Part shown: positions 15,841 through 52,576 of the stretch, piece after piece
Position numbering within the stretch: position 1 is the stretch's first letter
Layout of the letters: each line of letters starts with the position of its first letter
Assembly: GCF_014203645.1 (NCBI RefSeq)
Contig: NZ_JACHJL010000005.1
Span: 1-64,000 of the forward strand
Direction of reading: 5' to 3'
Origin: Streptomyces zagrosensis
GTDB taxonomy: Bacteria > Actinomycetota > Actinomycetes > Streptomycetales > Streptomycetaceae
Length of the DNA stretch: 64,000 nt
Program-made: the position numbers and the translations under genes
Notes under the pieces: model-generated
What the model saw: only the letters and a program-made list of their open reading frames with translations
The model's database searches: none
Told to the model about the DNA's origin: nothing

Positions 15841-18800
15841 TCACAGCGGCCTTTGCGGGGCGGCGGGTGCGGCGTTGGCCGCACCGCCTGACGTAGCCGG
15901 AGCCGGCTTCTGCGGACCGGCTGGGAGGGGTTCGGGGGCCTCTGGTTCGGGACGGCGGAACATGCGGGTTGCGGTGATCTCGCCGTGTACCTGCTCCGCG
16001 CCGGCGTCCACTGCGGGCAGACCGGGGCGCAGATGTTCCTCGACGCTGATGTACTTCAGCCCGGCCCGCAGGTCGGCGTCGTTGCGCAACCGAATGACCA
16101 ACGGGAACTCGGCGAGGGCCGTGGTGTCGAACAGACCTGTCGTGTAGAGGAGCTGCACACCGAGCGCGTCGGCGACTGCCCGCTGAAGTTCGAGGAGGTA
16201 GGTGGCGTTGGCGCGGCCGATGGGGTTGTCGAGGAACAGCGTGCCCGCGTGCCGGTGCTTGTCGCGGCCCCGGTCATTGCTGCGTAGCGCCGCCATCGTG
16301 CAGTACAGCGCGATGGCGGCGGTGAGCAACTGGCCGCCGGAGAACACATCGCCCATCTGCCCGACCGGCACCCGCTCGGCCCGCAAGACCGCGTCGGGCT
16401 TGAGGATCTCCACGGCCACGCCGCGCGGCTGGAGCGCCGCGTGCACGCCCCGCAGCAGCAGCGACATGCCGTCTCTGCGCAGGTCGGAGTTTTTGCGTAC
16501 GGCCGCGCGCGTGGCCTCGTCGATGACCTCGCCGAGCTGCTCACTGAGCGCAGCCTGATCGGGGTCGTCGAAGCGGATGCGCAGGAATTCCTGCCCCGAC
16601 CACTCCCCCAGGCCCTCCGGCAGCCGGGACAGCCGCTGAGCGGAACGCAGCGTCGCCAGGCAGGAGTCCACCAGCCCACGCAGCCGGTCGATGATGCTGT
16701 CCCGGTTGCGCTCAAGCTGTTCCAGCTCGTCGGTCAGTACCCGCAGCCGGGGCGCGAACGCCTCGGCCCAAGCCGCCGCGTGCTCCGGCAGCGCAGCCGC
16801 GGGTAGCTCCCTGATCTGCTGCCGGGCAGGAGTGCGCACCTGTTCGTAGCGGGTGGCGTTGGCATGCCGTACGAGGATGTCACTCGCCTCACGGACCGCC
16901 GCGTCGGCCGCCGACAGGTCGCCTGCGCAGCCGCGCAGCGAGCGGCGGGCCTCGGCTGCGGTCTGCCGGGCCTGCTCGAAGGTCCCTGGGAACGGCTCGG
17001 GCTCGGCGGTCTCCTCATCGACGCCACCGCGCGAATGCTCGCCGTCCTCGGCCGTGGAGCCTCGGATGAGGTCGCGCAGCAAGGCTCCGGTCTCCTCGAA
17101 GCCGCCTGCCGCGTCCTCCGCGGCCCGGTGGGCACGCAGCAACTCGGCGTGTGCCGTGCGGGCGCTTTCCAACGCATCCGTATGGGCGCTCAGTTCGCTC
17201 GTGGCGGTGCGCAACAGCTCCTTCGCTTGCTCGGCGTCGGCAGGAACGAGTCCCTCGGGCAGTTCGGTGTGTACGTCCCCGTCAGCCGGCGCGTGTCGCT
17301 CGGCCTCGCCGCGCAGCCTGCCGAGGTGTTCGCTGGCCGCCGATGCGCGGGACTCCAACATCTGCACCAGCGCTTCGGCGCGCGCGGCAGCCGCCTGGCG
17401 GGAGGGCCCATCGGCGCCGTCGGTGCCTTCAAGGAGCTGGGCGGCGCGGGTGCGGACCTTGTTGGTGAGACGCTCCAGGGCAGCGAGCCCGGCGCTCTCC
17501 TCGCTTTCCGCGCGAGCCTGTTCGGCACGCAGGTCAGCGCCCACGCCGACCTTCTCGTAGAGCTGTGACGCGGCCCGGTACGCCTCGCGCAGCGCGGGCA
17601 GCGATGCGGTGGGCTCAGCACTGCGCCGCGTACCGTCGGGGTCGTTGCCGGGATCGGACTCGCCCGCGCCCGGGGCCGAGTCGGCGTCCTTGGCCGCGGC
17701 GGCGGCGGTGGGGTCGTCGGCCCCAGCGATCTCCGCGCGCTCGGCGCGTAGGGCACGGGCCGTGCGGTGCGCGTCGTCGGCGGCGCGCTGGGCCGCACGC
17801 CGGTCCTCGTCGGCTGCGCGCGCCCGGTCCACGCAGGCGGCGGCCCGCTCGTCGGCCTCGGCTGCCTCGGCTGCCTCGGCTGCCAGTTCACGCAGCCTGG
17901 ACTGCCAGTTCGCGCGTTCACGCAACCGAAAGGCGAGCCCGGCCAGCGCGTCGGCGACACGGCGGGCGCGCTGCGCCGCCTCCTGCCGCTCGTCGCGTAC
18001 CCGGGCTGCCTCGGTGGCCAGCTCGTCGGCCTCGGCGCGCGCGGCGTGCGCCTGCGCGAGTTCTCGGCGCGCGGTCTCGGCCACCTCTTGCGCCGCGGTC
18101 ATCGCCGCGGCGAGTTCGGCGAGGCGGCCGGGAGGGCAGCCGGTGCGCCACGAGGAGAGCCGGGCGGCCAAGGCCCGGTCGCCGGACAGTCGGGCGGCCA
18201 GCGTTCTGATGTCCTCGTCGCGAGCGATGGCGCGGGCTCGACGTGTCTGCCGTTCGTCGTCGGCTGCCCGTTCGTCGTGCATCGCGGGGTTAGGCGGTAC
18301 GAGGAAGACGCTGCTGTCCTGCGCGCCCGGCCCGGGAGTGGGCGCGAGCAAGGCGGCGGCCGTGCCCACGGCGACGGCCGAGCGGGGCAGCAGCGAGGCC
18401 GATGCGAGCACATCGCGGGCGCGCGCGTGCGTGGCAGGGTCGGTGATGATGACGCCGTCCACCAGTTCGGGGCGCGCGGCGAGTACGGCGGAGTGGTCTG
18501 CGGGATCGACTGCCTGCGCGAGGTAACGCCAGCCGGGAAGCGCGGGGACGCCGTGTTCGCCGAGGTACTCGACGGCGGCGAGCACATCGGGGCCGGGTGG
18601 CAGCAGGCCGCCGTCGCCCAGGGCGCCCAGGATGCGCGCATCGTCGGCGGCGGCCGTCCGCAGCTCGAAGAGCTGGCGCTCGGCGGTGGCGACGCTGTCG
18701 TCGAGGAGTTCGCGCAGCGCGTCGGCGTTGCGGTCGAGTTCCACGGCGCTGAGCGGGGCGCTGTCGCGCGCGTGCGGTGCGCCATGGGCCTGGTCGCCGG

Positions 18801-21141
18801 TCCGGGCGGACCCGGCGGGCCGCGCGGCTGCGGTGGTGCTCGCGTCGAGGCCGGCACCGGCGTCGGTGGGCGCTCCGTTGGCGACGTCTTGTGCATGGGC
18901 CGATTCGGGTGTCCCGGGCGAGGCCGGGGCTGTGTCTGCTGGTGCGTCGGCGGCTGTGGGCGGCGCGGGCTCGGCTGGCTCGGCTGGCTTGGTTGACTTA
19001 GCGGGCTCGACGCGGTGGGGCGCTCTCGCGTCGGGGATGCGGGCTGTGGCGGACATGCCGTGCGCCGACGCAGCCGATGCGTCGTGCGTGCCCCGGGCGG
19101 TGGCCGCGCGCTGGACGTCCTGCTTGGGCTCGGGAGCCGATGCGGGGGCGGAGGCCGCGTCCGAGCCCGGTGCGGCGGCCGGTGTGCCGGGCTCGCCCGT
19201 CCCGGCGTTGTCGGCCGCTGCTGCGGTGGTGCCGCGGCCGGTTCGCGGGGCCGGCACGGTGGTTGTCGTCGTCTGGGGCAGACCGAGCAGTTCCACCAGG
19301 CGTTGCTCGGAGCCGAGCGACTCGGCGGCGCGGCGCTCCACGTCGTAGCTCGACTGGGCGGCGCGGGCGGCGTCCGCGGCGCGGGCCGCCGCGAGTTCGG
19401 CACGGCTGTGCTCCACGCTCGCCTCGCGCGCGCGGTCGGCGGTCGAAGTGGCGCTCTCGCGGGCGCTCTCCCACTGGGCCGCGACGGCCTTCTCGGCGTC
19501 GCTCGCGGTGAGCGCGGCGCGCGCCGGGTCGGCGTCGGGGGCGGAGTCGTCGAGCCAGCCGGCCCGTACCGCTTCGGCTGTCTCCTGCTCGACCTCGACC
19601 AGCCGCTGGCGCAGGTGCTCCGCCTCGCTACGGGCCCGCTGGGCCGCGGTCGCGGCCCCGGTGGCGTCCCGGTGCGCTGCTTCGCCCGTCTCCTGGAGCG
19701 CGGCCGACCGCTCTTCTTCCTCGGCCGCGACGCGCTCCCCCGTCTGGGCGGCGGCGTGCAGGGCCCGTACGAGGTCGGTGGCGGCCTTGGCGCGGGCGGC
19801 GAGCGCCGGCGCCGCGTCCCGTTCTGCCTCGCGGATCGCGGCGGCTACGCGCACCGAGCGGTCGGCGGCGGCGCGGTGCCGCAGGACGGTCTCCGCGGCC
19901 TGCCAGGCGGCGTGCAGCGTCCTGGCATCGGCCAGCTCTCGCCGCTGGGCCGCGGCGCCCTTCTCGGCCGCGGCCAGGGCCAACGAGGCGTGCCGGTAGG
20001 CGAGTTCCGAGGCGACCAGGGAGCTGCGACCGCGCTGGCGTTCGGCCTCGGTGACCGCGTGTGCGGCGGCGGTGACCTGCTGGGCGAGGTCGGCGGCGCG
20101 CTCGCGCTCGCTCGTGCCGCGGGCCATGAGCCGGTGGGCGAGGCCGCGCGTGCGCCGCTCGGCCCCGGCGTGGACGTCGCGGGCCCGCGCGCGGTCTTCG
20201 GCCGCCTCGCTGATCCGGGTCAGCAGGTCGAGCGAGCCGGCCGTGAAGTCCCGTTCCGCCGTCAGTTCGGCGCGCCGGCCCAGCTTGTGCGCGAAGCCGT
20301 GGACTAGGTCGGCCAGGCCATCGGTGTCTCGGGTGTCGGTGACGGCACGCAGCAGCAGGTCGGTGAAGTCGGAATCGTTCTTCACCGCGAACAGACCGGC
20401 GGCCTCGCCCTCGTCGGCGTTCATCTCGCGCTGGTAGCGGAAGAGTTCGGGGTCAAGGCCAAGGTCGCCGAGGTGTTCGTTCCAGCGCTCGTGGATCTCT
20501 TCCCAGGTCACTTCGAGATGCGGATAGACCTTGGTTGCTTCGGTGATGGCGTCGCGGAAGCCCTTCATGGTGCGGCGGCGGCCCCTGGCGCCGGAGCCGC
20601 CGGCGGTCTCGGGCCTGACGAGGCCCTCCACCAGGGGCCGCATCGCGGTGGACTCGGCGACCGGCAGCGAGTCCAGGCTGAGACCCGGTCCTGGTCGGAA
20701 GGAGTACCACGCCTCCGCGAACTTGCGTGGGTCGCCCGACACTTGGCGCCCTCGCCACTCGCTGACCTTGCCGACCACCACCGTTTCGCCGGTGACCGTG
20801 TGCTGCCATTCCAAGGCGACATGGCCGCAGTCGTCGGCCAGCAGGAACTTGCGCAGCACTCCGGAGCTGGCGCCGCCCAGGGTGTTGCGGTGTCCTGGCA
20901 ACATCACGGAGAAGATCAACTTCAGCAGGACGGACTTGCCGCCGCCGTTTTCCAAGAAGAGCACGCCCGCGGGCGCCGGGCGGCGGGGCGGTCCGACCGG
21001 GTCCTCCTGGAAGAACTCCGCCTGGGCAGGCGCGGGGCTTGGCACCGGCTCGCCGACTCCGCGCAGGTCGAGCATGGTGTCGGCGTAGCGCGCACCGGCT
21101 GGCCCGATGGAGTAGAGGCGGACCCGGGACAGCTCGTACAT
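15841..21141 (-). CDS. Giant SMC-like ATPase (JetC/MksB/MukB-like)
   Basis: This 1766-residue protein has the split ABC-ATPase layout of SMC/Rad50/MukB proteins. The N-terminal P-loop is FLENGGGKSVLL (Lys near residue 69). Very long Ala/Glu/Arg coiled coils run about 290-620 and 980-1560. The signature VFSGGQLL lies near 1600 and the Walker B LFLDNP near 1635-1640. The residue after the Walker B Asp is Asn (codon 16225-16227) where a catalytic Glu is normal. Residues about 625-795 are low-complexity Ala/Pro/Thr, next to a folded hinge-like block (about 810-950). It is the last of three genes (kleisin-like, MukE/JetB-like, SMC-like), in JetABC order. A DNA-loop-extruding or DNA-organising complex is inferred. 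It could be a defence system core or a housekeeping condensin. No nuclease gene is adjacent. Confidence 0.75.
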   Translation of the reverse strand: MYELSRVRLYSIGPAGARYADTMLDLRGVGEPVPSPAPAQAEFFQEDPVGPPRRPAPAGVLFLENGGGKSVLLKLIFSVMLPGHRNTLGGASSGVLRKFLLADDCGHVALEWQHTVTGETVVVGKVSEWRGRQVSGDPRKFAEAWYSFRPGPGLSLDSLPVAESTAMRPLVEGLVRPETAGGSGARGRRRTMKGFRDAITEATKVYPHLEVTWEEIHERWNEHLGDLGLDPELFRYQREMNADEGEAAGLFAVKNDSDFTDLLLRAVTDTRDTDGLADLVHGFAHKLGRRAELTAERDFTAGSLDLLTRISEAAEDRARARDVHAGAERRTRGLAHRLMARGTSERERAADLAQQVTAAAHAVTEAERQRGRSSLVASELAYRHASLALAAAEKGAAAQRRELADARTLHAAWQAAETVLRHRAAADRSVRVAAAIREAERDAAPALAARAKAATDLVRALHAAAQTGERVAAEEEERSAALQETGEAAHRDATGAATAAQRARSEAEHLRQRLVEVEQETAEAVRAGWLDDSAPDADPARAALTASDAEKAVAAQWESARESATSTADRAREASVEHSRAELAAARAADAARAAQSSYDVERRAAESLGSEQRLVELLGLPQTTTTTVPAPRTGRGTTAAAADNAGTGEPGTPAAAPGSDAASAPASAPEPKQDVQRAATARGTHDASAASAHGMSATARIPDARAPHRVEPAKSTKPAEPAEPAPPTAADAPADTAPASPGTPESAHAQDVANGAPTDAGAGLDASTTAAARPAGSARTGDQAHGAPHARDSAPLSAVELDRNADALRELLDDSVATAERQLFELRTAAADDARILGALGDGGLLPPGPDVLAAVEYLGEHGVPALPGWRYLAQAVDPADHSAVLAARPELVDGVIITDPATHARARDVLASASLLPRSAVAVGTAAALLAPTPGPGAQDSSVFLVPPNPAMHDERAADDERQTRRARAIARDEDIRTLAARLSGDRALAARLSSWRTGCPPGRLAELAAAMTAAQEVAETARRELAQAHAARAEADELATEAARVRDERQEAAQRARRVADALAGLAFRLRERANWQSRLRELAAEAAEAAEADERAAACVDRARAADEDRRAAQRAADDAHRTARALRAERAEIAGADDPTAAAAAKDADSAPGAGESDPGNDPDGTRRSAEPTASLPALREAYRAASQLYEKVGVGADLRAEQARAESEESAGLAALERLTNKVRTRAAQLLEGTDGADGPSRQAAAARAEALVQMLESRASAASEHLGRLRGEAERHAPADGDVHTELPEGLVPADAEQAKELLRTATSELSAHTDALESARTAHAELLRAHRAAEDAAGGFEETGALLRDLIRGSTAEDGEHSRGGVDEETAEPEPFPGTFEQARQTAAEARRSLRGCAGDLSAADAAVREASDILVRHANATRYEQVRTPARQQIRELPAAALPEHAAAWAEAFAPRLRVLTDELEQLERNRDSIIDRLRGLVDSCLATLRSAQRLSRLPEGLGEWSGQEFLRIRFDDPDQAALSEQLGEVIDEATRAAVRKNSDLRRDGMSLLLRGVHAALQPRGVAVEILKPDAVLRAERVPVGQMGDVFSGGQLLTAAIALYCTMAALRSNDRGRDKHRHAGTLFLDNPIGRANATYLLELQRAVADALGVQLLYTTGLFDTTALAEFPLVIRLRNDADLRAGLKYISVEEHLRPGLPAVDAGAEQVHGEITATRMFRRPEPEAPEPLPAGPQKPAPATSGGAANAAPAAPQRPL

Positions 21142-21370
21142 GGCGGACTCTCGTGGTGTGGTGGGCGGAACAGTGGTGGAATGCGGCGCTGTTGGGGGCG
21201 TTGTCGGCGGCAGCGGTACGGCGCACCGGCGCGGGCGGGCCGCGCGTCCGTCAGCGGCGCCCGGATGCGGGCGGCACGGCGGGATGTGCCGTCAGCGGCA
21301 TCCGTCCAGCGGCACCCGTCAGGGCGGATTGCAGGGGCCGCCGGCCAGGGCCGGTTGCCGAGCTGGCCGG

Positions 21371-22336
21371 TCAGGACGGGCCGCGTTGATCGGCGTAGAA
21401 CGGCAGGCCCGCGTCGGCGACCAGGTCGAGGTCATGGTTCTCCAAAGGTGGCAGCAGGGTGGCGTTCCCGTCTCCTACAGGGACAACGCCCAGCTCCAGT
21501 AGTTCGGTCATGGCCGCGCTGCCCGCCATGTCGCGGACCTGGAGTTGGTAGCGGGCCGTGGTGCGGTACGCGCCGCCGGCGTCGTCGCCGGTGCGCTGGA
21601 GGAACCCGGAGTCAACGAGGAAGGCGACGGCCTTGCCGACGATGCCGGTGGTGGAGCCGGCGAGCCGTCTCGCGTCCTTGGTGGCGCCGGTGGCGCTGCG
21701 TCTGGCGTACACCCGCCAGGCCGCCTCCAGGCCGGGGGCGTCGGTGGCCGGATCGGTGTTCTCGCCTGCTTCCGCGGCCCGTTCCTCCAGGCGGCGGCAT
21801 GCCTGGCGGACAAACCCGTCGATGCCGTTGACGGTGACACGGCCGATGTAGCCGTCGTCGGACAGGTCTTCCGGGCGCGGGAAGGCCATCGCGGCGACGG
21901 CGAGGTGGGCGAGCCCGTGCAGAAATCGGTCGGCCGAATCGGGCGCGGCACGCTTGGCGTAGTCGCCCATGCGCACGGCGAACACCGAGTCCTCGGCGGC
22001 GGTCACTGCCATGCCCGCGCGAGTGGACACCTCCAGGACGACGAGCCCGAGCCCGGCGGCGATGGCGTCGGTGAGGCGGGCGAAGGCGGGGTCATCGCGG
22101 TGGCGGCGCAGCAGTTCGCCGTACTCGATGTCGCGTGCGGGCAGCAGCTTGGGCTGGAGTCCGAAGGAGACCAGCCGTGCGGCGTCGGCCGCGTCGGCGG
22201 GTGTGACACCAGCGTTGGCGTGCGCGACGGTTCCGTGCGGCTGGCTGCTGCCGGCTGTGCTTCGGCCGGGGTCATCCGCCTCGGACGCGAGGTCTCGCTC
22301 CGGCTGCGCGCCGTCGTCGGTGCGGTACTCGGTCAC
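21371..22336 (-). CDS. MukE/MksE/JetB-like winged-helix partner of the SMC
   Basis: A 321-residue protein placed between the kleisin-like and SMC-like genes. The first 55 residues are Asp/Ala/Thr-rich and probably disordered. The remainder is mixed alpha/beta with a likely winged-helix near the C terminus (GIVGKAVAFLVDSGFLQR, then AYRTTARYQLQVRDM), a pattern expected of the KITE-type subunits that dock on kleisins. Assignment rests on gene order, size and this pattern, not on a clear sequence motif. The GTG at 22334-22336 has GAGGAG nine bases upstream. The gene lies about 235 bases after the kleisin-like gene and 229 bases before the SMC gene, which are wide gaps for an operon. Confidence 0.6.
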   Translation of the reverse strand: MTEYRTDDGAQPERDLASEADDPGRSTAGSSQPHGTVAHANAGVTPADAADAARLVSFGLQPKLLPARDIEYGELLRRHRDDPAFARLTDAIAAGLGLVVLEVSTRAGMAVTAAEDSVFAVRMGDYAKRAAPDSADRFLHGLAHLAVAAMAFPRPEDLSDDGYIGRVTVNGIDGFVRQACRRLEERAAEAGENTDPATDAPGLEAAWRVYARRSATGATKDARRLAGSTTGIVGKAVAFLVDSGFLQRTGDDAGGAYRTTARYQLQVRDMAGSAAMTELLELGVVPVGDGNATLLPPLENHDLDLVADAGLPFYADQRGPS

Positions 22337-22571
22337 GGTTGGTGCTCCTCGAAGTGAACGGGGTCCGCCGGTGAGGCGGGGTCAGCGCGGCGCCGCAAGC
22401 CCATGGGGTGTGGCCCCTCCGCAGCGTGCCAACACGACGCGCGATGCGCGGGGCGCCCATGGCTCAAGAAACTCAAGGGGTGCGGGGCGGCGCCGTGCCG
22501 AATCGGCGGCGTGGATATCCGGCGCAGCGGGTGGCCGCCGTGCGGCGGCGCACGGCGCAGCTCGATGCGCA

Positions 22572-24104
22572 TCACACCCCCTCCGTACGGCCGGCGGCCA
22601 TGCCCACCGCATCCAGGAGGGCGGTGCCGACGATGAGGTCGGCGCCACCGAACTCCTCGTCGTCGAGCTCCGTGCCGTCGTCCACGGCGAAGAGAAGGCG
22701 CTCTTCGCCCTGCCGGTAGGCCGTGCCGACCGGCGGGCTCGCCGCGTGTACGGCGAGCAGGGCGACCAGGTAGGGCAGCGCCGGGTCGCGGCGACGGGCC
22801 TCGGCGAGCAGCCCGGATAGCCGCCGCGGCGCGTCGGGCGGCAGTTCGAGGAGGTCCATGGCCGAGGCGAGTTGCTCCTCGCTGAAGCGGTTGTCGTCCG
22901 GCGTGGCGATGAGGTCGGGCTCGGGCATCTCGGCGCCCAGGTGCTCCCGTTCGAGCGGCGGCGTCAACAGCAGGTCCACCAGGTCCCCGACCCGCACGGC
23001 GGTGGGTGTGCGCAGTCCGGTGCCGCGGGCGAAGAACGCGTCGGTGACGCGGATGGCGCGCTCCACGGGCAGCGGCAGCAGCGGCGCGATGAGTTGGCCG
23101 TAGAGGTCGATGCCGGCGTGGGCGGTGGGCGGTGCGAACGCCTGTCGGTCCTGTTCCGCGCGGAACATCGGTCCCGCGTCGAGGAGTCGGGACTGCAACT
23201 GTGTGTGGCGCCGGATGCAGTCCTTGACGATGTCCACCAGCTCGGCGGCCTGCCGCTTGTGGTCGGGGCCGCGCTGGTCAACCGCCTCGTCTCGGGCCTT
23301 GCGAATGTTCGTCAAGATCGCGTTCTCATGGCGGTACCGGTCGGCGATGTGGTCGAGCGCCTCGGCGATCATGTCGGGGACGGCACGCAGCCAATCAACG
23401 GCCCGCACGTTACGCCGGGTGGCCTCCAGGGTCTTACGCAGCGCCTCCGCGTACTGCACGGTGCGGTAGCGGGCTTGTTCGGCGGCGAGTTGCGCGTCCG
23501 CGAGCCGGCCGCGGCTGATCAGCACCTCCAGCTTGACCTCGGCGGCGATCTGCGCGCTGGTGACATCCGTATCGAGGGCGCCGACCAGGACGTTCACCGC
23601 CTCGTCGGTGGTGCGCAGATAGACCGTGCCGCCCGGCCCGGGGACTTCCTCGATGAGCTTGAAGTCGTAGTCCCTGCGCACATAGGCGCCGTCCTGGCCG
23701 AACGTGCCGTACACCGCACGGAAGCCGCGATCCACGCTACCCACGTTGATCAGGTTCTCCAGGACCCAGCGCGCCACCCGCTCGTGCTCGGCAGCGGGCC
23801 GCGTGGGGGTCTGGGCTGCGACCCTGGGCAGCAACCTGGCCACTATCTGCTCATGGTCGGCGCCGGTGTCGAAGTCCATGGTCAGCGTGACCAGATCGAT
23901 GGCGGCGAGCGCCACCTCCGCCATCGCGTATCCGCTGTACTCCCCCGCCAGGTTGGCCTTGCGCACATCGAGGTCGTGCAGCGGCGCGGTGCAGGCGAGC
24001 GCGCGCAGCCGCCGGGCCAGGCCCTCATCGGCGGCCGGGCCCGGGGCTGGCCTCGATGGGCCACTGAGCTGGGGCGTAGCAGCCCCCGGGGGTGGAGAAG
24101 TCAC
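22572..24104 (-). CDS. Kleisin-like protein (MukF/MksF/JetA-like)
   Basis: The product is about 510 residues, largely helical. It has an N-terminal helical bundle, a block containing RRDYDFKLIEE and VYLRTTDEAVNVLVGALD, then long helices (residues about 200-290, Ala/Arg/Glu-rich) and a C-terminal region that could bind an ABC head. YLRTTDEAVN followed by DVTSAQIAAEVKLEVLISRG resembles the mid-region of MksF/JetA proteins. The start is taken as GTG at 24104, since an in-frame extension to 24608 would run through the pcp gene in another frame. It begins 56 bases after pcp ends, so readthrough from the pyroglutamate operon is possible. The role in an SMC complex is inferred. Confidence 0.62.
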   Translation of the reverse strand: MTSPPPGAATPQLSGPSRPAPGPAADEGLARRLRALACTAPLHDLDVRKANLAGEYSGYAMAEVALAAIDLVTLTMDFDTGADHEQIVARLLPRVAAQTPTRPAAEHERVARWVLENLINVGSVDRGFRAVYGTFGQDGAYVRRDYDFKLIEEVPGPGGTVYLRTTDEAVNVLVGALDTDVTSAQIAAEVKLEVLISRGRLADAQLAAEQARYRTVQYAEALRKTLEATRRNVRAVDWLRAVPDMIAEALDHIADRYRHENAILTNIRKARDEAVDQRGPDHKRQAAELVDIVKDCIRRHTQLQSRLLDAGPMFRAEQDRQAFAPPTAHAGIDLYGQLIAPLLPLPVERAIRVTDAFFARGTGLRTPTAVRVGDLVDLLLTPPLEREHLGAEMPEPDLIATPDDNRFSEEQLASAMDLLELPPDAPRRLSGLLAEARRRDPALPYLVALLAVHAASPPVGTAYRQGEERLLFAVDDGTELDDEEFGGADLIVGTALLDAVGMAAGRTEGV

Positions 24105-50257: not shown

Positions 50258-52576
50258 TCAGTCGTCGCGCGGGGTTTGGGCCCGGTGCAGGGCGGCGGCC
50301 TGGCGGTAGACGGCGACCGCCTCCTCGTTGCGGCCGAGCCGCTCCAGGCACTGCGCCTCGTCGTTGCGGCTGGCGAGGGTGTCGGGATGGTCATCGCCAA
50401 GGACCCGGGCCCGGGCGGTGGCGACCTGGTGATAGGCCGTCAACGCGTCCGGCCAGCGATCGAGCCATCCCAGGCACACCGCCACCTCGCGGCGGCTGAC
50501 CAGGGTGTCGGGGTGGTCGTGGCCCAGTACACGTTCCCGGACGGCGCATACGTCCCTGGCCTCGGCCAGCGCCTCTTCCCAGCGCCCGAGGCGGCCGAGG
50601 TTGACGCCCAGGCCGTGCCGGGCCCGCAGCGTCTCCGGGTCGGCGCCGCCGTGCACCCGCGTCCGGTCAGCGGCCAACTCCCGGTAGAGCGCCAGCGCCT
50701 CCTGGCTGCGACCGAGCCGGCCCAGGCTGATGCCCACCTCGTAACGGGACGCGAGGGTGTCAGGGTGGTCAGCGCCCAGCGCCTGTTCGCGTGCGGTGGC
50801 CACCTCGCGGTAGGTGCGCAAGGCCTCGTCCCAGCGGCCGAGTTGGCCGAGTGCGTACGCCACCTCGTACCGCGTGACGAGCGTGTCCGGGTGCAGTGCA
50901 CCGAGCACCCTGCCGCGGGCGGCGGCCACCTCGTACGCCATCCGGTACGACTCGTCCAAGCGGCCAAGGCGGCTGAGGTTGAAGGCCAGGTTGTGCCGGC
51001 AGCGCAGGGTGTCGGGGTGATCAGTGCCTATGACACGCTCCCGGATGGCCAGCACGGTGACGTAGACCTGGTGCGCCTCCAGGTGGCGGCCGAGTTGGCC
51101 CAGGACGTACGCGGTCTCTTGACGGGCGGCGAGGGTGTCGGGGTGATCCGGGCCGAGCACCCGTTCTCGGCCGCCGGCCACCTGGGCGTACTCACGCAGC
51201 GCGTCGGCCGGGCGGCCGAGCCGCCCCAGCGTGAAGGCGATCTCGTAGCGGGACGCGAGGGTGTCGGGATGGTCGGGGCCGAGCGCCTGCTCCCGCTCGG
51301 CGGCCACCGCGCGGTGCACCTCGCCCGCCTCCTCCCAGCGGCCGAGTCGGGCGAAGCTGAGGCCGGCATGGTGGCGAATGGCCAGCCGGTCGAGCAGCCC
51401 CGGCGACGGAGTGGGGCGCTTGGCTTCGACGCTGGGTGCCGCCTGTGGCGGGCTGGCCAGGGGGCCCGTCCAGGAGCCGGTGAGCCCGGCGGAGCGGTCC
51501 ACCGCCTCCAGGGGCAACGCACCGCTGCCCGTCGCCTTGGAGCCGGTGGTCATGTGCCGGGCCCAGCCCGGCAGCCGGGGCTGGCCGCCCGCGAGGGGGG
51601 CGCCCACGCCGGGTGACTGGCCTCCGTCGCCGCTCGCGGCCGGCGCGCCGATGCCGATTCCGGTGCCGTCCGGGGCAGCGTTGCGATCGGCTGCCTGGAG
51701 CGTGTGGGCTCCCGGCTCCCGTCCCCGCGTGATGCGCGAGGCGAGCGCGGCGGCATCGTCCGGGCGCTCCCCCGGGTCCTTGGCCAAGAGGTCGAGTACG
51801 ACGTCCGCGAAGGATGGAGGCAGCTCTGGGCGGTGGCTGCGCAGCGGCTCCGGCGGGGTGTCGCGGTGGCCGACCAGTACCGCCCACGCGTCCTCGTGGT
51901 CGAAGGGCGGGGCCCCGGTGGCCAGTTCGTAGAGCACGCACCCGAGTGAGTACAGGTCGCTGCGGTGGTCCACGACGCCGCCGGAGATCTGCTCGGGCGA
52001 CATGTAGTGCGGGGTACCCATGGCGACACCGGTTCCCGTGAGCCGGGATGTGAGGCCGATGTCGTCGCCGAGTCTGGCGATGCCGAAGTCGCAGATCTTC
52101 ACCGTGCCGTCGGTCAGCCGCATGATGTTGGCGGGCTTGAGGTCGCGGTGCACGACGCCCTGCCGGTGGGTGTAGGCCAACGCCGCGCTGACCTGTGCGG
52201 CGATCTCCACGGTGTCCGCCACGGGCAGCGGGTGCGGCTGGCTGTCATCGAGGAGTTGGCTCAGGTTGCGTCCTTCGAGCAGTTCCATCACGAGGTAGAG
52301 GATGCCGTCGTACTCGCCGAAGTCGTGCACCACGGTCACTCCGCGGTGCTGGAGCGAGGCGGCGACCTGTGCCTCGCGACGGAAACGTTCGCGCAGGACC
52401 CGCAGGTACGAGGCGTCGTGCTGGGGGCCTATCGGCTTGAGGCACTTGACGGCGACGAGACGGCCTAGGGATGCGTCACGGGCGCGCCACACCTCGCCCA
52501 TGCCCCCTCGCCCGATGATGTCGAGAAGCTGGTACCGGCCCTGGATCAGCCTGGTCTCCGCCATCGAATCCGCCAT
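50258..52576 (-). CDS. Ser/Thr protein kinase with C-terminal TPR array
   Basis: A 772-residue soluble protein. The Hanks-type kinase (residues 13-285) has IIGRGGMGEVWRA, the catalytic VAVKCLK, HRDLKPANIM (near 145) and DFGIARL. A Pro/Gly-rich linker (about 290-420) leads to TPR repeats of about 42 residues (units such as LARLGRWEEAGEVHRAVAAEREQALGPDHPDTLASRYE repeating about eight times) of the kinesin-light-chain type. There is no transmembrane helix or PASTA tail, so it probably senses or binds a cytoplasmic partner through the TPRs. A downstream neighbour on the same strand encodes a secreted mutase and is unlikely to be the target. Confidence 0.93.
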   Translation of the reverse strand: MADSMAETRLIQGRYQLLDIIGRGGMGEVWRARDASLGRLVAVKCLKPIGPQHDASYLRVLRERFRREAQVAASLQHRGVTVVHDFGEYDGILYLVMELLEGRNLSQLLDDSQPHPLPVADTVEIAAQVSAALAYTHRQGVVHRDLKPANIMRLTDGTVKICDFGIARLGDDIGLTSRLTGTGVAMGTPHYMSPEQISGGVVDHRSDLYSLGCVLYELATGAPPFDHEDAWAVLVGHRDTPPEPLRSHRPELPPSFADVVLDLLAKDPGERPDDAAALASRITRGREPGAHTLQAADRNAAPDGTGIGIGAPAASGDGGQSPGVGAPLAGGQPRLPGWARHMTTGSKATGSGALPLEAVDRSAGLTGSWTGPLASPPQAAPSVEAKRPTPSPGLLDRLAIRHHAGLSFARLGRWEEAGEVHRAVAAEREQALGPDHPDTLASRYEIAFTLGRLGRPADALREYAQVAGGRERVLGPDHPDTLAARQETAYVLGQLGRHLEAHQVYVTVLAIRERVIGTDHPDTLRCRHNLAFNLSRLGRLDESYRMAYEVAAARGRVLGALHPDTLVTRYEVAYALGQLGRWDEALRTYREVATAREQALGADHPDTLASRYEVGISLGRLGRSQEALALYRELAADRTRVHGGADPETLRARHGLGVNLGRLGRWEEALAEARDVCAVRERVLGHDHPDTLVSRREVAVCLGWLDRWPDALTAYHQVATARARVLGDDHPDTLASRNDEAQCLERLGRNEEAVAVYRQAAALHRAQTPRDD

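Follow-up and report, generated by a model that had tools for sequence, protein, structure and literature searches.

What does a Wadjet-like gene set do once its nuclease is gone? This question is raised by a 64,000-nucleotide stretch of Streptomyces zagrosensis DNA (contig NZ_JACHJL010000005.1, positions 1 to 64,000; hereafter the window), in which three genes at 15841-24104, all on the minus strand, encode a kleisin, a KITE protein and an SMC ATPase in that order. PMC10586767 describes JetABC of known Wadjets as an ATP-driven DNA sensor and JetD as the cutter, which becomes active only when extrusion on a small circle brings the complex up against itself. A first-pass annotation read the three genes as a JetABC-like trio lacking JetD and offered three explanations, namely a nuclease-free condensin variant, a partnership with a nuclease encoded elsewhere, or a lost defence function. 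We found that the first of these fits best, with a chromosomal role that we infer, and that the third is compatible with it. With a probability of roughly 0.6, the trio descends from type III Wadjet, has no nuclease and is conserved as a condensin-like DNA organiser beside the canonical SMC.

Identity of the three genes

The genes of the trio and the evidence by which they were named are as follows.

22572..24104, minus strand: JetA, a JetA3-like kleisin of 510 amino acids (PADLOC JetA3, predicted structure)
21371..22336, minus strand: JetB, a JetB3-like KITE/MukE-like protein of 321 amino acids (predicted fold, homology to the JetBs of four-gene systems)
15841..21141, minus strand: JetC, a JetC3-like SMC ATPase of 1766 amino acids (PADLOC JetC3, PDLC00588)

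JetC matched PDLC00588 with E=0 and 1332 bits, and JetA matched PADLOC JetA3 (PDLC00567) at 1e-186. Scans of all three proteins against Pfam and NCBIfam gave nothing meaningful for any of them; against PDB sequences, the JetA and JetB profiles matched no Muk or Jet chain and a profile of the JetC C-terminal head found nothing relevant. In the AlphaFold2 model of JetA (predicted local distance difference test score, pLDDT, 77.2; predicted template modelling score, pTM, 0.51), winged-helix-like N- and C-terminal parts flank a long helical middle. A plain Foldseek search with this model returned no significant match, the top two entries of its ranking being designed helical proteins and the third a type II Wadjet chain. 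A second structural comparison was led by MukF chains (Z 14.4 to 12.9), with 3rpu_X aligned at Z 14.0 and a root-mean-square deviation (rmsd) of 2.8 over 150 residues; in the same comparison, CorA helices reached Z 13.0 and E. coli JetA only 9.6. The predicted kleisin identity of JetA rests on the PADLOC match together with this second comparison.

JetB had no PADLOC match in the profile scan, and the PADLOC JetB3 models catch at most 4 of the 37 JetBs of the lineage; most JetBs of verified four-gene systems go unmatched as well. Its AlphaFold2 model (pLDDT 77.7, pTM 0.68) has disordered tails at both the N and the C terminus. MukE and JetABC chains filled the first 11 places of the Foldseek ranking (E 4.4e-3 to 0.11), the best-aligned chain was 8as8_C of E. 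coli Wadjet (Z 8.4, rmsd 5.5, 174 residues), and the JetB sequence is homologous to JetB of four-gene systems. The JetABC-like reading of the first-pass annotation thus holds, JetA and JetC being placed by PADLOC, JetB by its MukE/JetB-like fold and its homology, and the JetA model being MukF-like.

Search for a JetD nuclease

No JetD lies beside the SMC gene, as had been claimed: 3' of JetC are a convergent gene of 119 amino acids and then a kinase gene whose product has NIT and HATPase domains. Throughout the whole genome, no match was found with the PF09983 profile at E up to 10, with PADLOC JetD3 (PDLC00594) at E up to 1e-3, or with a four-protein JetD3 profile at E up to 10, the last search having no positive control of its own. 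A further JetD profile, made from half of the available JetDs, was run against six-frame pieces of 106 trio loci (80 from named Streptomyces, 15 from a second actinobacterial family, f18, 10 from other Streptomycetaceae, and the window). It matched none of the 106 at E up to 10, and it recovered all 14 held-out JetD loci, each at 1e-73 or lower. Leaving the window aside, 105 trio loci remain, and in 85 of them at least 1.2 kb of DNA beyond JetC was present.

Could a JetD encoded elsewhere in the genome act in trans? Strong JetD3 matches (E below 1e-40) do occur in 14 of 199 Streptomyces genomes, and weak ones (6.5e-10 to 7.9e-4) in another 14. However, a second JetA is present in 13 of the 14 genomes with a strong match, and the 14th (G477) carries JetB-JetC-JetD at a contig end; 179 of the 193 JetA-positive Streptomyces genomes have no strong match, and the present genome has no match at all. 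A JetD in trans is therefore very improbable, and for this genome it is largely refuted.

Another possibility is that the trio has exchanged JetD for a different effector, a nuclease or topoisomerase of another kind encoded elsewhere. The searches described above covered JetD families, which leaves room for such a partner. Against it, no constant partner gene adjoins the trio. In 65 loci from named Streptomyces, JetC is complete at its end and the DNA continues past it. The gene that comes next lies on the opposite strand in 59 of these; in the other six it is cvnA, 873 bases away, or a short unknown gene, and none of them is JetD. The neighbours also differ between the two families. We consider a replaced effector distinctly improbable.

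Further genes downstream of JetC were inspected. Neither of the two same-strand genes that follow JetC in L153 and L156 is a JetD. A gene of JetD length just after JetC in f18 was likewise rejected as a nuclease, being convergent and having no toprim-like motif by eye; one such gene was scanned and gave no Pfam match. In four f18 loci (L119, L120, L128 and L134), a protein of unknown family with a membrane anchor is encoded by a convergent gene that recurs beside the trio after JetC.

Distribution of the trio

A JetA match was found in 193 of 199 Streptomyces genomes and in 192 of the 194 of good quality. Of the six genomes without one (G344, G365, G371, G439, G455 and G483), three are less than 90% complete, and the good-quality G365 and G439 are each in more than 1000 contigs; the match in G409 reached only 6.6e-68. 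The genus is given as Streptomyces on the strength of the named loci and of G325, in which the match has the same coordinates as locus L031 of S. buecherae. In the order sample, all 132 genomes of the same genus had a match. Of 121 genomes of the Streptomycetaceae (f1), 120 had the match, and all 17 genera were represented; 119 of these genomes have close copies (at least 74% identity), the only match of G492 is part of the JetD-bearing system L168, and G546 lacks one. In the class sample, 43 of 296 genomes and 5 of 114 genera were positive, and in f18, 19 of 35 genomes and 4 of 7 genera. Since the copies occur in f1 and f18 and the sister families of f1 are without them, either losses or a transfer between f1 and f18 would account for the pattern.

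The surroundings of the trio are conserved in Streptomyces and unlike those in f18: upstream stands a GntR gene, a peptidase/DUF979/DUF969 group or another set of constant genes, and cvnA is often found downstream. In the window, the genes 5' of JetA encode a pyroglutamyl peptidase, DUF979 and DUF969 proteins and a GntR regulator. In 36 single-contig chromosomes selected by hand, the locus lies at a median of 16% of the chromosome length from the nearer end (below 10% in 3, 10-25% in 29 and beyond that in 4). Linear chromosomes were considered as a general explanation for the trio; this idea is rejected if f18 is the Frankiaceae with circular chromosomes, as we presume it to be.

The wide spacing to which the first-pass annotation drew attention is real in the window (235 and 229 bases) and is not diagnostic. 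In the 80 named Streptomyces loci, with computed gene starts, the median gap was 133 bases between JetA and JetB (77 loci, at least 229 in 17) and 66 between JetB and JetC (75 loci, at least 229 in one); in f18 the trio genes touch or overlap. The wide gaps are partly a trait of the lineage and partly one of the window's strain. TTA codons, through which bldA control would act, are missing from the three genes of the window and were found in 0 of 78 JetA, 1 of 77 JetB and 0 of 66 JetC genes, and there is thus no sign of bldA regulation.

JetD-bearing sister systems and the probable loss of JetD

Some Streptomyces species also hold a second, diverged type III copy that bears JetD. Four-gene loci were fetched from Streptomyces, other Streptomycetaceae and f18, and in 22 of 22 contiguous JetA-JetB-JetC-JetD loci, JetD follows directly after JetC on the same strand, mostly overlapping it by 4 bases. 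Partial JetD-bearing loci were also found (L133, L138, L144, L169 and L170), L170 (G152:C749) being a JetD3 gene on a short contig without JetA, JetB or JetC. Four JetDs of the sister systems matched PDLC00594 at 8.7e-84 to 4.4e-123, and in plasmids from Rhodococcus (L171) and Polaromonas (L173), RefSeq independently gives the name JetD to the gene that follows the trio.

In a JetA tree of 63 rows, one branch parted 41 JetD-less copies from 22 others with a support of 97/95; the 22 include L133, which stops at a contig edge and for which the JetD was drawn from a different contig of that genome. When plasmid systems were added with Polaromonas as outgroup and four long rows were omitted, the JetD-less branch had a support of 96/95, and in a tree of JetC heads it had 92/94. 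The trees were midpoint-rooted and their outer branches are long. In both the JetA and the JetC trees, the JetD-less group nests among JetD-bearing copies, and a single loss of JetD is therefore the simplest history.

Two side observations concern the sister systems. In L143, L145 and L146, the gene directly after JetD is related to the kinase-TPR protein of the window (50258-52564) and could represent a regulatory addition to that JetD-bearing subclade. In G380 and G438 (L149 and L150), JetD3 matches occur near both ends of one chromosome, which suggests that their four-gene system sits in terminal inverted repeats.

Sequence constraint and the ATPase motifs of JetC

A reading of the trio as a decaying Wadjet remnant can draw on the missing nuclease and on broken trio copies in a few genomes (G494, G545 and G552). 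Nevertheless, the ratio of nonsynonymous to synonymous substitution rates (dN/dS) was below 1 in every pair compared, which indicates purifying selection. For JetA it ranged from 0.049 to 0.446 (median 0.115) in 12 trio pairs and from 0.128 to 0.210 in five JetD-bearing pairs. JetA columns conserved to at least 90% numbered 245 in 22 trio rows versus 90 in 11 JetD-bearing rows, a comparison between unequal row numbers. Together with intact motifs and persistence across 17 genera, this conservation refutes decay for most of the Streptomycetaceae and leaves that reading with hardly any probability.

The motifs and the insert of JetC in the window are the following.

20932..20952, minus strand: Walker A, ENGGGKS, JetC residues 64-70
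16330..16344, minus strand: ABC signature, FSGGQ, JetC residues 1600-1604
16216..16236, minus strand: Walker B, FLDNPIG, JetC residues 1636-1642
18760..19275, minus strand: Ala/Pro/Thr-rich insert in the mid-protein (hinge) region, JetC residues ~623-794, boundaries approximate

Walker A and the signature are intact. Of 101 Streptomyces-type loci in which the JetC start is readable, 99 share an identical 16-residue context of Walker A, and the heads of ten Streptomycetaceae JetCs were 92-100% identical near Walker A and 97% identical near the signature and Walker B. The LDNP form of Walker B is common to the trio JetCs and most JetD-bearing relatives (L135-L150 and the window); a pattern search of type III JetCs did not find it in L151 and L173. 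None of the 8 aligned JetD-bearing JetCs has the insert (residues 651-750 show a gap fraction of 1.00) and most trio JetCs lack it too; it accounts for much of the extra length of the window's JetC. Median JetC lengths were 1564 in 73 Streptomycetaceae trios, 1649 in nine f18 trios and 1494 in 22 systems with JetD.

A proposed condensin-like role and its rivals

Given this conservation, how might the trio work? In the history we favour, the common ancestor of the Streptomycetaceae and f18 copies would have lost JetD once, and the remaining SMC-kleisin-KITE complex would have been kept as a near-constant gene set. A JetC dimer would be bridged by JetA, with JetB sitting on the kleisin, and ATP binding and hydrolysis would drive DNA loop extrusion, as in other JetABC/MukBEF complexes. 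The end state without JetD would be compaction or positioning of DNA, presumably of the host chromosome, and not cleavage. Since removal of JetD from a sensor/cutter system would leave a loop extruder, we infer a second condensin-like complex beside the canonical SMC, which is also encoded in this genome (G000:C6:318990-322703). A weak SMC-type N-terminal match (32 bits) was additionally seen at G000:C22:7260-7394 within an open frame of 1369 amino acids, perhaps another SMC-like protein of this genome.

Several results weigh against a condensin-like organiser. JetC has Asn at the position of the usual SMC catalytic Glu in Walker B, though JetD-bearing relatives have it too. No residue of JetA or JetB was found that is conserved within both groups and yet differs between trio and JetD-bearing copies, so that no lost JetD contact can be demonstrated. 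The distribution counts are of JetA matches alone, the three-gene context having been read in the fetched loci. None of the 15 genomes from two sister families of the same order has a close copy (two have a diverged match), 16 of the 35 f18 genomes have no JetA match, and in G494 (L157) the trio has decayed: its JetA is broken, its JetC is split into two short pieces, and no JetB was found. The trio is thus not essential everywhere. Finally, MksBEFG of C. glutamicum, which bears JetD, has no part in organising the chromosome according to PMC7083940.

For this last reason, an action on plasmids without cutting stays a serious rival. The trio might still be an immune complex that recognises and extrudes small circular replicons and leaves them silenced, sequestered or destabilised. 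The systems most closely related to it are of type III and bear JetD, and PMC10586767 presents JetABC as the sensing part of Wadjet and states that SMC complexes without a nuclease of their own can restrict extrachromosomal DNA. On the other hand, the near-constant presence, conserved neighbours and strong conservation of the trio contrast with the patchy JetD-bearing systems (14/199). Among 72,556 plasmid records, JetA was matched by five, all less than 60% identical, and there was no close copy. Overall, we regard non-cutting immunity as unlikely, and a condensin-like organiser remains the reading that we prefer.

Relation to known systems

A nuclease-free SMC complex derived from JetABCD is a known kind. 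The review PMC10586767 considers P. aeruginosa MksBEF to derive from JetD loss and to organise the chromosome, and it proposes a transition from immune SMC to chromosome organiser for MksBEF and MukBEF. Like MksBEF, the Streptomyces trio is an SMC-kleisin-KITE set without its nuclease (MksG in that system); unlike it, the trio is of the type III lineage, MksBEF presumably belonging to another. The trio shares with type III Wadjet its gene order, the JetA3 and JetC3 profile matches and direct sister clades, and differs in having no JetD, in its near-constant chromosomal presence, in its tighter conservation and in its longer JetC and JetB. MksBEFG/EptABCD of Corynebacterium and Mycobacterium are likewise actinobacterial, but are JetABCD systems, four-gene sets with a nuclease, and act in plasmid defence. 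The SMC-kleisin-KITE architecture is common to Smc-ScpAB as well, whereas the sequence family is a different one: TIGR02168 (SMC_prok_B) marks another locus of the genome and has no match at the trio.

In the part of the open-licence PMC literature that our search reached, no description of a nuclease-free type III complex of Streptomyces was found, in agreement with the first-pass view of a little-described system. In a 2026 paper on Streptomyces SMC (PMC13121528), the word Wadjet is absent and MksB occurs once, in the title of a reference. As far as we have searched, the new features are an origin in type III, a near-constant presence throughout the Streptomycetaceae and sister systems with JetD residing in some of the same genomes.

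Significance for Streptomyces chromosome biology

We give a little less than an even chance to the broader proposal that Streptomyces and its relatives own a second, unrecognised chromosomal condensin, domesticated from the anti-plasmid Wadjet III by a single loss of its nuclease. Such a condensin may act at a site out of reach of the canonical SMC, for example at hyphal tips through a kleisin-DivIVA contact, in long multigenomic hyphae or during sporulation. The first of these sites is suggested by analogy: in C. glutamicum, according to PMC7083940, the kleisin MksF is in contact with MksG, and both proteins bind DivIVA, which makes hyphal tips worth a look as a lead.

For defence-annotation pipelines, JetA3 and JetC3 matches in this family are usually not a complete Wadjet, and some trio loci may be counted as Wadjet by DefenseFinder. 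For the transition from immune SMC to organiser, the nuclease-free clade can be compared directly with JetD-bearing sisters, some of them in the same species. Work on the Streptomyces chromosome, in which SMC has so far been treated as the condensin (PMC13121528), may have missed a second complex, and such an overlooked complex would bear on how smc mutants are interpreted.

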